This document shows positions 10,322 through 14,098 of a DNA stretch of 34,892 nucleotides, piece after piece. The DNA lies in assembly GCA_021372895.1 (NCBI GenBank), contig JAJFTP010000014.1:1-34892 (forward strand), given 5' to 3'. How positions within the stretch are numbered: position 1 is the stretch's first letter; each line of letters opens with the position of its first letter. The DNA comes from Synergistaceae bacterium. Lineage in GTDB: Bacteria; Synergistota; Synergistia; Synergistales; Synergistaceae. The translations under genes and the position numbers were made by a program. The notes under the pieces were generated by a model. That model was not told the DNA's origin and made no database searches. It saw only the letters and a list, made by a program, of their open reading frames with translations.

Positions 10322-10378
10322 GTGGTATTGGTACGTGTTGTGGTATTGGTACGCCAAAAGAAAACACCCAAAAGAAAA
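10322..10378. repeat. Two sets of tandem direct repeats before the met promoter
   Basis: GTGGTATTGGTACG occurs at 10322-10335 and 10340-10353 (18-base period). CCAAAAGAAAA occurs at 10354-10364 and 10368-10378 (14-base period). They end six bases before the -35 box and could be regulator sites (first pair) and an A-rich UP-like element (second pair). Confidence 0.7.
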
Positions 10379-10383
10379 GGTGC

Positions 10384-10412
10384 TTGACATTTGCAATAGG
10401 CATGGCTATAAT
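10384..10412 (+). promoter_or_regulatory. Consensus sigma-70 promoter of the metNIQ operon
   Basis: TTGACA (10384-10389), a 17-base spacer, and TATAAT (10407-10412) match the consensus at every position. The start point is expected near 10419, about 29 bases before the leader peptide ATG. Confidence 0.9.
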
Positions 10413-10447
10413 GCTCGGCAATATATTCAGGGGAAGGAGGAACCATA

Positions 10448-10528
10448 ATGAAACATAGCGCAGCAAATAGCAGCATGATGATGTGCATGTACACCCGAGG
10501 CTCCTCTCCTGATCCAGTGGACGCCTAA
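10448..10528 (+). CDS. Methionine-codon leader peptide of the metNIQ attenuator
   Basis: This is a 26-codon reading frame that begins MKHSAANSSMMMCMYTRG and ends TAA at 10526. The ribosome binding site GGGGAAGGAGG is very strong (10430-10440) and 7 bases from the ATG. Codons 10, 11, 12 and 14 are ATG and codon 13 is TGC (10475-10489). It follows a perfect promoter and precedes an intrinsic terminator and the methionine ABC transporter. A control-codon run at this place is the hallmark of ribosome-mediated attenuation, with methionine (possibly also cysteine) as the sensed amino acid. The peptide itself probably has no other function. The stop codon forms the loop of a 6-base-pair hairpin (10520-10534). 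Confidence 0.8.
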   Translation: MKHSAANSSMMMCMYTRGSSPDPVDA

Positions 10529-10554
10529 GGCGTCGTTGCTGTAAAATCAGAGAG
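10504..10554 (+). promoter_or_regulatory. Antiterminator pairing of the metNIQ attenuator
   Basis: CTCTCCTGAT (10504-10513) pairs with ATCAGAGAG (10546-10554) with one bulged C, enclosing the small hairpin GACGCC-TAA-GGCGTC (10520-10534). The 3' strand overlaps the 5' arm of the terminator, so the two structures exclude each other. A ribosome stalled at the Met codons leaves 10504-10513 free and allows antitermination. A ribosome reaching the stop at 10526 would cover it. Confidence 0.65.
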
Positions 10555-10583
10555 ACCGGGCCTCGAGCCGGGTCTCTTTTTTT
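10551..10583 (+). terminator. Attenuator terminator before metN
   Basis: AGAGACC (10551-10557) pairs with GGTCTCT (10571-10577), and an inner GGC/GCC pair continues beyond a G-G mismatch. A T-run follows (10577-10583). It is 31 bases upstream of the metN start. Confidence 0.85.
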
Positions 10584-10613
10584 GTGCTTTTTTTTAACGA
10601 AGGGAGAAATTTG

Positions 10614-11582
10614 ATGATACACATTAAAGGACTTGGGAAATATTACAGCGATATGAAGGTGCTTCAGGATATTTCCCTGGATGTTGAGCAGGGTGATGTT
10701 TTCGGCATCGTCGGGCACTCCGGTGCAGGCAAGTCAACGCTGCTGCGCTGTCTCAACGGTCTTGAGGACTACAGCGAGGGCTCCGTCAGGGTTATGGGAC
10801 ATGAGGTCTGCGAGCTTACGCCGGATAAGCTGAAGGAGCTGCGCCGTGAGATGGGTATGATTTTCCAGAACTTCAACCTCATGAACAGGAAGAACGTCTA
10901 CCAGAACATAATGTTTCCGCTCGAAGTCTGGGGTGTTCCCAAAAAAGAGGCAACCGCGCGCGTGGAGGAGCTCCTGGCGCTTGTCGGGCTCACGGAGAAA
11001 CGCGACGAAAAGATACGGAACCTCAGCGGAGGGCAGAAACAGCGCATAGGTATTGCAAGGGCGCTCGCACTGAAGCCAAAGATACTCCTATGTGACGAGG
11101 CTACCTCTGCACTCGACCCAAAAACGACGATCTCAATACTCGAACTACTGATGGATATCAATATGAAGCTTGGAGTGACTATTGTCGTTGTGACGCACCA
11201 AATGGAGGTTGTGAAGATGGTCTGCAACAAAGTGACCATACTCGATGGAGGCAGGATCGTGGCTTCCGGCGAGACGGACAATCTCTTTCTGGCACCGGGC
11301 GAGGAACTGCGCAAGCTCATCCACGACGACTACACGATCATACCGTCCGGCACAAATATAAGGCTTGTCTTTCCGCGAGAGATAGCGAATGAGAGTATTA
11401 TCACAAGTATGGCGCGCGAACTTGACACGAACTTTTCCGTCGTGGGTGGAAGGATAGAGAGATACCGGAACGATATTATGGGATTCCTCATCATAAATGT
11501 AGCAGATAAAGACCTTGACAGGGTCCTTCAATGGCTTAAAAACAAAGGTATGGTATGGGAGGTAATGAAAGATGGTGAATGA
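10614..11582 (+). CDS. metN: Methionine ABC transporter ATP-binding protein MetN
   Basis: This is the ATPase of the MetNI-Q importer for methionine. Walker A is GHSGAGKST (residues 34-42), the signature is LSGGQKQRIGIARAL and Walker B is ILLCDEATSALDP. The last roughly 70 residues form a NIL domain (NTNFSVVGGRIE through MGFLIINV), the regulatory module that binds methionine and inhibits transport in characterised MetN proteins. The ATG at 10614 has AGGGAG (10601-10606) upstream. The longer open frame beginning at 10584 lies in the terminator U-tract region and is rejected. The 322 residues are slightly short of the enterobacterial protein (about 343). The gene overlaps metI by 11 bases. Confidence 0.95.
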   Translation: MIHIKGLGKYYSDMKVLQDISLDVEQGDVFGIVGHSGAGKSTLLRCLNGLEDYSEGSVRVMGHEVCELTPDKLKELRREMGMIFQNFNLMNRKNVYQNIMFPLEVWGVPKKEATARVEELLALVGLTEKRDEKIRNLSGGQKQRIGIARALALKPKILLCDEATSALDPKTTISILELLMDINMKLGVTIVVVTHQMEVVKMVCNKVTILDGGRIVASGETDNLFLAPGEELRKLIHDDYTIIPSGTNIRLVFPREIANESIITSMARELDTNFSVVGGRIERYRNDIMGFLIINVADKDLDRVLQWLKNKGMVWEVMKDGE

Positions 11583-12207
11583 GCTTCTGTATGCACTCTG
11601 GGAAACGGTCTATATGGTCGCACTCTCGACGCTTTTTTCGGGAATTTTCGGTTTTGGGGTCGCGATAGTTATGATACTGACAGGTGCAAACGGACTCAGG
11701 CCCAACAGGGCCGTATACTCGACACTGAGTCTTATTGTCAACCTGCTGCGCTCGTTCCCTTTCATCATCCTGATGATTGCGATAATCCCGCTCACAAGGC
11801 TGATAGCGGGGACTTCGATAGGGAGCACTGCGTCAATAGTCCCGCTTACTATTGCAGCTACGCCGTTTGTCGCCCGTCTTATGGAGGGCAGCCTGCTTGA
11901 AGTCGACCCGGGAGTTATTGAGGCGGCGCGTTCCTTCGGCGCAGGCGATATGCAGATCGTCTTCGGCGTAATGGTGAGGGAGGCAATGCCATCAATAGTC
12001 CTTAACTGGGCGGTAGTCGCTATAAATCTTCTCGGATACTCGGCTATGGCCGGTGTCGTGGGCGGCGGCGGACTTGGCGACCTGGCCATAAAGTATGGCT
12101 ACAACAGGTTTCAGACGGACGTCATGATCTACTCCGTCGTGATACTGATAATCATCGTTCAGATTATACAGAGTATCGGCAATGCAATGTATGAACGGAT
12201 AAAATAG
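11572..12207 (+). CDS. metI: Methionine ABC transporter permease MetI
   Basis: This inner-membrane permease of the MetNI importer has 211 residues and about five transmembrane helices. The EAA loop that contacts the ATPase reads EAARSFGAGD (residues 117-126). The frame starts inside the end of metN (ATG at 11572, metN stop at 11580-11582), which implies coupled translation. The length and helix pattern match MetI. Confidence 0.94.
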   Translation: MVNELLYALWETVYMVALSTLFSGIFGFGVAIVMILTGANGLRPNRAVYSTLSLIVNLLRSFPFIILMIAIIPLTRLIAGTSIGSTASIVPLTIAATPFVARLMEGSLLEVDPGVIEAARSFGAGDMQIVFGVMVREAMPSIVLNWAVVAINLLGYSAMAGVVGGGGLGDLAIKYGYNRFQTDVMIYSVVILIIIVQIIQSIGNAMYERIK

Positions 12208-12342: not shown

Positions 12343-13122
12343 ATGAAAAAGATAATATTCGCACTGCTTTTCGCGCTCGTTATTCCGACAGCGGCATTTG
12401 CCGCAAACAAGACCATCACGATCGGAGTTACACCATTCCCACATAAGGATATCATGGTCGTGGTCAAGGGCCTTCTTGCCAAAGAGGGCTATGACCTCCA
12501 GATAAAGGAGTTCACCGATTACGTGACGCCAAACATCGCGCTTGCAGAAAAGAGCCTGGACGCGAACTTCTTCCAGCATGTCCCCTACCTTGAAAACATG
12601 AACAGGGAAAAGAATCTTAATCTCGTCTGGGTCGCGAAGGTACACATCGAACCGCTTGGTCTTTATTCACAGAAGATAAAGAAGCTGAATGAGCTGAAAA
12701 ACGGAGCGCAGATAGCGATACCCAACGATGCGACGAACTGTGCCCGAGCTCTTCGCCTGCTTGAAAAGAACGGACTCATCAAGGTAAAACAGGGAGAACT
12801 TGTGACGGCAAAAGACATAACAGACAACCCCAGGAAGATAAAGTTCCGCGAGCTTGATGCCGCGCAGCTCCCGCGCACTCTGCAGGACGTTGACGCAGCT
12901 GTCATTAATACGAACTTTGCAGTAGAGGCAAAACTGATCCCATCAAAGGATGCGATCATCATCGAAGGCAAGGACTCGCCCTATGCAAATGTCATAGCGG
13001 TCCGTGCCGCAGACAGGAACACACCGGCAATCAAGGCGCTTGTAAAGGCCGCAAACTCAAAGGAAGTAAAGGAATATATTATAAAGAACCTAGTCCCGAA
13101 GGGGATCGTACCTGCGTTCTAG
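12343..13122 (+). CDS. metQ: Methionine-binding periplasmic protein, NlpA/MetQ family
   Basis: This is the substrate-binding protein that delivers methionine to MetNI. An N-terminal signal peptide (about residues 1-20, ending PTAAFA before ANK) is followed by the NlpA-family domain, with the typical GVTPFPHKDIM opening and the N-terminal-half segment EFTDYVTPNIALAEKSLD. Most family members are lipoproteins with an LxxC lipobox. None is present here, so this one is predicted to be soluble in the periplasm after signal peptidase I cleavage. The ribosome binding site is a run of GGAAG repeats (12322-12335). It lies 135 bases after metI, separated by the stem-loop. The exact ligand (L- or D-methionine) is not readable. 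Confidence 0.92.
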   Translation: MKKIIFALLFALVIPTAAFAANKTITIGVTPFPHKDIMVVVKGLLAKEGYDLQIKEFTDYVTPNIALAEKSLDANFFQHVPYLENMNREKNLNLVWVAKVHIEPLGLYSQKIKKLNELKNGAQIAIPNDATNCARALRLLEKNGLIKVKQGELVTAKDITDNPRKIKFRELDAAQLPRTLQDVDAAVINTNFAVEAKLIPSKDAIIIEGKDSPYANVIAVRAADRNTPAIKALVKAANSKEVKEYIIKNLVPKGIVPAF

Positions 13123-13317: not shown

Positions 13318-13441
13318 GCTTATGCAGTCTTACGGCAATGAGGTGAAAAAATCCCTTGCAACAATAGGTAAAGCACGCATAAAGGTCAAAGGCGGGCGGT
13401 GTATAATAATTATCGAAAATCCTATCGTAAAAGGTGATAAC

Positions 13442-14098
13442 ATGAGACGTTATATTTTGACAGCGGCTGTTATTTCAGCACTTCTGGGGTTCTGCGCAGC
13501 GTCATTTGCGGCAGATATGGCAACGGAATTCAGCGCCAGTTTTATCGAGAAGGACGCTGGGGCGGAACAGAAGGGCAAGGTCTACATCGCAGGTGATATG
13601 TCCCGCTACGAAATAGCCGGCAGCAATGAGATAGTGGTGACCAGAGAGGATAAGAAGGTAATATGGCTTATCTTCCCGAAACTCCGGCGTTATGTCGAGC
13701 AGGAGTATATCGGAGCGCCGAAGCAGAATCTAAGCAGTCCTCAGGAGATTGACACAGGTGACCTGTCCAGGGAATTCATCGGACACGAAATGGTCGACAG
13801 TTACAGATTGAAGAAATTTCTGGTTACAGTAAAATACAACAAGGGAGAGACAAAAGACCAGTATTACGAATGGTACCGCGATAATTTCCCCGTTCCGGTC
13901 AAGACCCAGTCCTTGGACGGCAGGACCTCCTATGAATATACGAACATTAAGCTCGGGAGGCCAAACATGGAGCTCTTTGCTGAACCAAAAGGCTATAAAA
14001 AAGTAACGATCGAAGAGATCGATGCAATGGAAGCTGCTGGGAAAAACAAGGGAAAATCCGAGACCGTGGGAAAATCAGCGGACGTTGTTAAAGGATAA
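13442..14098 (+). CDS. Secreted DUF4412/LolA-like protein
   Basis: This is a periplasmic protein of 218 residues with a clear signal peptide (MRRYILTAAVISALLGFCA..., cleaved near residue 23 before DMATEF). The mature part has features of the LolA/DUF4412-like beta half-barrel group: a KVYIAGDMSRYEIAGSNEIVVTR strand pair, IWLIFPKLRRYVEQ, then YYEWYRDNFPVPVK. The C-terminus is lysine- and glycine-rich and probably disordered. The ATG at 13442 is chosen because the signal peptide begins there and AAAGGTGATAAC precedes it; an open frame extends further upstream without such support. TATAAT at 13402-13407 may be its -10. The function is unknown; a role in envelope maintenance is a guess from the fold resemblance. 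Confidence 0.75.
   Translation: MRRYILTAAVISALLGFCAASFAADMATEFSASFIEKDAGAEQKGKVYIAGDMSRYEIAGSNEIVVTREDKKVIWLIFPKLRRYVEQEYIGAPKQNLSSPQEIDTGDLSREFIGHEMVDSYRLKKFLVTVKYNKGETKDQYYEWYRDNFPVPVKTQSLDGRTSYEYTNIKLGRPNMELFAEPKGYKKVTIEEIDAMEAAGKNKGKSETVGKSADVVKG

Follow-up and report, generated by a model that had tools for sequence, protein, structure and literature searches.

Background

Leader-peptide attenuators were described in a 2013 survey of RNA regulons for His, Leu, Thr and Trp, plus Ile/Val and Phe only (PMC3766115). For methionine, a leader named metL was proposed in 2021 from RNA-seq upstream of metNIQ in Streptomyces lividans, with the Met/Cys-containing peptide MSTTSDRTPATEATTTPGARCMCRRMCAF, and no functional test of it was found in that paper (PMC8079986). 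A further report describes a SAM-I riboswitch of Xanthomonas campestris that senses uncharged initiator tRNA and acts mainly on translation (PMC7270179). No methionine leader attenuator besides that of S. lividans was found in open-access text, and subscription papers could hold precedents. As far as we found, attenuation at Met codons has barely been proposed before and no test of it came to light. The earlier note on this DNA called such a leader rare or undescribed; given the 2021 proposal, it is not wholly undescribed (PMC8079986). Methionine is an awkward case for leader-peptide attenuation because translation of the sensor cannot begin without it.

The locus described here lies in a window of 34,892 nucleotides, which is the whole stretch of DNA that was analysed, from the genome of a Synergistaceae bacterium. 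Judged from the sequence, the leader that precedes metNIQ in this window is a ribosome-mediated transcription attenuator, with a run of methionine codons as its sensor, with a probability of about 0.86.

Organization of the leader and of the metNIQ genes

The features of the locus are the following.

10384..10412, + strand: sigma-70 promoter, TTGACA-17-TATAAT, 12/12 consensus matches
10427..10441, + strand: region 1, the Shine-Dalgarno stretch, pairs with region 2 (full-leader MFE and swap test)
10430-10440: Shine-Dalgarno sequence GGGGAAGGAGG, upstream of the leader ATG at 10448
10448..10528, + strand: leader peptide frame of 26 codons, MKHSAANSSMMMCMYTRGSSPDPVDA, start ATG 10448, stop TAA 10526-10528
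10475..10489, + strand: putative regulatory codons Met-Met-Met-Cys-Met (84 methionine-gene loci from 57 genomes have a Met run)
10496..10513, + strand: region 2, 5' strand of the antiterminator and anti-Shine-Dalgarno strand (fold with the upstream part masked, coevolution)
10520..10534, + strand: stop-codon hairpin, TAA in the loop (fold, alignment A2)
10546..10565, + strand: region 3, 3' strand of the antiterminator, overlapping the 5' arm of the terminator (fold, swap test)
10549..10580, + strand: intrinsic terminator (regions 3:4) and U tract (folds, swap test, pattern scan)
10614..11582, + strand: metN, methionine ABC transporter ATPase with NIL domain (TIGR02314 as best match, below the curated cut-off; PF09383)
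11572..12207, + strand: metI, permease (PRK10782 as best match, just below the cut-off; PF00528)
12343..13122, + strand: metQ, substrate-binding protein (PF03180, E = 1e-94; TIGR00363 and PRK11063 matches)

The consensus promoter, the strong ribosome site and the 26-codon frame with four Met codons and one Cys codon at positions 10-14, all pointed out in the earlier note, could be read in the sequence, Met occupying codons 10, 11, 12 and 14 and Cys codon 13. The core of region 2, GGCTCCTCTCCTGAT, spans 10499-10513. The stop-codon hairpin is enclosed by the antiterminator and its loop is exactly the stop codon. The terminator hairpin (10549-10579) ends 34 nt upstream of the metN start codon, which is the ATG at 10614, where the alignments of orthologues begin, and not the GTG at 10584 chosen by the ORF caller. 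The sequence ATGATGATGTG is present in one copy in the window against 0.04 expected.

Two further observations were made around the locus. Just 5' of the leader promoter, at 10322-10356 of the window, the direct repeat GTGGTATTGGTACG occurs in two copies about 17 nt apart. On the 3' side of metQ, at 13322-14098 of the window, a protein of about 220-258 residues is encoded that is predicted to be exported and has no Pfam or NCBIfam match.

Folding and proposed switch

The full leader folded more stably than its shuffled versions (z = -2.3), and its MFE structure represents the off state, in which the ribosome site (10427-10439) is paired with region 2 (about 10499-10512) and the terminator is formed as well. 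When the RNA up to 10493 was removed, which mimics a ribosome stalled at codon 12, the antiterminator became the MFE structure (-37.3 kcal/mol) and the terminator was lost; masking of region 2 brought the terminator back in the fold (-32.9). The antiterminator proposed in the earlier note does exist, but the pairing given there (10504-10513 with 10546-10554) was too short: its extent is 10496-10513 with 10546-10565, that is 17 bp. It is mutually exclusive with the terminator, as had been claimed, the hairpin being now placed at 10549-10579 followed by the U tract. A third pairing, between the uORF ribosome site and region 2, completes the 1:2 / 2:3 / 3:4 arrangement of an attenuator.

Several of the elements by which an attenuator is recognized are found together. 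An intrinsic terminator stands before the first structural gene, the putative sensor is a short frame with codons for the amino acid of the operon, and the Met-codon run is placed so as to leave the antiterminator strand free under a stalled ribosome. From the third Met codon to region 2 the distance is 15 nt in 51 loci and 18 nt in 27, which accounts for 78 of the 83 measurable leaders. A ribosome protects about 12 nt beyond the start of its A site, so that with these spacings a stall at the third Met codon just clears region 2. The folds, this spacing and the three pairings agree with the classic attenuation geometry suggested beforehand.

The switch would operate as follows. By default, and when methionine is plentiful, the ribosome would get past the Met codons and, at the stop codon, cover the 3' half of region 2; after its release region 2 would pair with the leader's ribosome site (1:2), and the terminator (3:4) would form before metN. 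When methionine is poor, charged elongator Met-tRNA would become too scarce and the ribosome would stall while a Met codon occupies its A site. In this position its leading edge would end just short of region 2, which would be free for region 3, and with regions 2 and 3 paired as the antiterminator RNA polymerase would continue into metNIQ. The Met-codon leader very probably switches metNIQ on when a lack of methionine makes ribosomes pause, and the signal sensed would be charged elongator Met-tRNA. The sequences themselves show the parts and their conservation, the mutual exclusivity of the pairings, their coevolution and the match of codons to genes; that ribosomes stall when Met-tRNA is scarce, and that read-through changes in consequence, is what we infer. 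One consideration counts against the attenuator reading, namely that a shortage of methionine should slow initiation on the leader too, as the initiator Met-tRNA is charged by the same synthetase.

Coevolution of the pairings

Registers shift between clades, which makes the wide alignment A3 unfit for column-based covariation, and an alignment-free partner-swap test was therefore used, with 94 non-redundant loci and 20000 permutations. In this test, which ignores shared ancestry, the antiterminator (2:3) reached -25.5 kcal/mol for native against -18.6 kcal/mol for swapped partners (z = -18.6), while the terminator (3:4) gave z = -24.9 and the pairing of the ribosome site with region 2 (1:2) gave z = -9.1. 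For all three pairings, none of the 20000 permutations was as good as the native pairs. The signal was also significant inside the metN, metQ and metY groups, being weakest for 1:2 (z = -2.8 to -5.2). Compensatory change in both hairpins, one of the checks that had been proposed for this locus, is thereby borne out in the swap tests.

Conservation across Synergistota

In Synergistota, a Met-run leader was found before metN, metQ, metY, metX or metB/C at 84 loci, which come from 57 genomes belonging to 32 genera and 5 families. A cultivable member of the phylum, Synergistota bacterium L-13 (CP074691; complete genome), carries two of these leaders, each before a metQ gene. The covariance model R1, which includes the ATG run, matched in 94 of the 188 Synergistota genomes, often several times per genome, and the window's own genome has a second copy of the Met leader before a solo metQ (L061). 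Among the full-length metN orthologues of the same family 11 of 13, the window's own counted, have the leader; it is absent upstream of the other two compared (L004 and L012). The homologous frames have 26-29 codons in 10 same-family genera, and a promoter resembling that of the window is present in most homologous leaders. The other check proposed in the earlier note, conservation of the Met run in relatives, also spoke for the attenuator, since at least three Met codons follow the start in 84 of 85 scored methionine-gene loci; the exception, L069, has a MMMYY run in a frame other than the one scored.

The codon after MMM is Cys in 69 of the 76 distinct peptides, Arg in 6 and Gln in 1, and with such a near-invariant codon cysteine may be co-sensed. 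A leader that responds to cysteine, or to sulphur amino acids generally, and in which the Cys codon is indispensable as a second sensor would moreover agree with the presence of cysE, divergently encoded, next to the leader locus, and with the mixed Cys/Met runs found before some metN genes (L185, L191, L213). Such sensing is nevertheless unlikely. Arg, Gln, Tyr or Ile take the place of Cys in intact-looking leaders of metQ, metY and metB/C in which the Met run is kept (Cys is replaced in L066, L073, L074, L091, L174, L176 and L196), the target genes are methionine genes, and a single Cys codon faces at least three Met codons.

In another family the metN leaders L185, L191, L203 and L213 keep the Met run as MMMCMC... 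and have no GSS-type region 2; as the downstream layout differs, the RNA switch there may differ too. A TMMMCTTM leader was also seen before a 420-residue protein that has no Pfam or NCBIfam match at the thresholds used (L094:1143-2402, L090, L162), and such a leader suggests that the regulation of this protein is linked to methionine or threonine.

A search of all GTDB genomes with the pattern ATGATGATGTGC-N6-15-GGNTCCTC returned 56 stretches, and good R1 matches came from Synergistota only. One other full-length match stood out, in the Spirochaetes MAG L143, where no leader frame with a downstream gene is found on that strand, so that it looks like chance.

Short frames can appear in any GC-rich leader, and the frame could in principle be incidental, the terminator being then an ordinary one or part of an undescribed riboswitch. 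Such a coincidence is hardly credible: conservation over 32 genera extends to the frame and its Shine-Dalgarno sequence, to the Met codons and to their distance from region 2, and the sequence upstream diverges freely, unlike an aptamer. In addition, no Rfam family matches the leader, a scan of the window at gathering thresholds having returned no riboswitch, T-box or known leader, with zero matches to the SAM aptamers (RF00162 and others) and to the T-box (RF00230).

Relation to SAM-I riboswitches and T-boxes

Methionine genes had been said to be usually under the control of SAM riboswitches or T-boxes. Both do occur in the phylum, but the Met leader is used alongside them. SAM-I riboswitches were found in 113 of the 188 Synergistota genomes, the window's genome having two, and T-box matches are likewise present in Synergistota and in that genome. 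As these sensors co-occur in the phylum and in the genome, the Met leader adds to their control and does not replace it.

At six loci (L075, L080, L088, L098, L180 and L205), which precede metQ, metX or metY, a SAM-I aptamer precedes the Met leader at a distance of 77-115 nt, both being on one strand. A clear hairpin with U tract lies between aptamer and leader in 5/6 of them, and a promoter precedes the aptamer in 4/6; with a simple pattern, a promoter was found in the gap between aptamer and leader in 0/6. This layout points to a single transcript on which the two sensors follow one another. The SAM-I aptamer upstream of the same leader in six loci also ties the leader to methionine independently. 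On balance it appears probable that the leaders form a phylum-wide Met-codon regulon which discriminates elongator from initiator Met-tRNA and which, in some lineages, is set in series with SAM-I, so that transcription would pass only if SAM and charged Met-tRNA are both scarce.

Other amino-acid leaders with the same framework

Model R1 holds the ATG run and is thus biased towards Met, for which reason a second model was built (R2), covering region 2 to the terminator only and leaving out the codon run; its training set consists partly of Met members. R2 matched in 137 of the 188 Synergistota genomes, and 58 new matches were read. In these, ilvN and ilvC are preceded by Ile/Leu/Val runs, aspartokinase by MTMTS or TTMTS, homoserine dehydrogenase (hom) by Thr codons with or without Met, and aromatic-linked genes by Phe/Tyr/Trp runs, the gene names resting on recognisable similarity to annotated proteins, save for ilvC and the aromatic-linked genes, which were read from sequence. 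In the R1 set, runs of Ile/Leu/Val codons precede leuA and ilvD, and MMMMT occurs in one aspartokinase leader. The window's own genome carries a homologous attenuator with the leader LVLVLVLLI before ilvN (L272; G000:C64:33232-33315, minus strand). Met-rich frames were found in 84/85 methionine loci of the R1 set versus 0/15 branched-chain loci (Fisher p = 6e-17). With a shared framework and matching codons before other amino-acid genes, the codon run is the exchangeable part that is matched to the gene.

Aspartokinase and homoserine dehydrogenase leaders that mix Thr and Met codons (L167, L170, L187, L182, L251, L254, L259, L257 and L278) were observed, and such a mixture fits branch-point enzymes. 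The leaders with Phe/Tyr/Trp runs (YYFYFWF and similar; L252, L276, L279, L289, L291, L295 and L301) have, where the downstream gene is readable, a phenylacetate-CoA-ligase-like gene or a transporter behind them.

These relatives bear on the possibility of an arrest peptide, in which the nascent chain would stall the ribosome on a bound metabolite (methionine, SAM) or on a metal. The MMMC core is near-invariant, and Met/Cys-rich peptides are able to bind metals. An arrest peptide is very improbable all the same: the residues at -9 to -1 relative to MMM vary, which favours the codons over a nascent-chain signal, the same RNA design is used elsewhere with ILV, T/M and F/Y/W runs matched to the genes, and stalling on plentiful methionine would turn the importer on in times of plenty, which is the wrong sign.

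Comparison with known systems

That a Met-codon regulon is conserved suggests that methionine attenuation evolved all the same, and it makes testable whether elongator Met-tRNA loses its charge before initiator Met-tRNA. Synergistota have a wide range of homologous attenuators in which the codon run is interchangeable, some of them stacked behind a SAM-I riboswitch.

With the classic attenuators (his, trp, thr, leu, ilv, phe) the leader shares a regulatory codon run, an overlapping antiterminator and terminator and an operon for the matching amino acid. It differs from them in that the regulatory amino acid is methionine, which has a single codon and is also the initiating residue, in that the leader's own ribosome site serves as region 1, and in that the stop codon is found in the loop of a hairpin within the antiterminator. 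The metL leader of S. lividans is similar as a proposed Met/Cys-containing leader peptide upstream of metNIQ, whereas its transcript is leaderless, with no typical terminator and no Met run (PMC8079986), and it shows no evident sequence similarity to the leader in the window. SAM-I riboswitches (S-box, RF00162) also govern methionine genes, but they bind SAM directly and do not need translation. The Met-specific T-box (RF00230) senses tRNA charging and serves methionine genes as well, although it binds uncharged tRNA directly and has no leader frame. The SAM-I riboswitch of X. campestris likewise is reported to couple the charging of Met-tRNA to the expression of methionine genes; there the initiator tRNA is sensed (PMC7270179), whereas the leader described here would sense the elongator tRNA by way of the ribosome.
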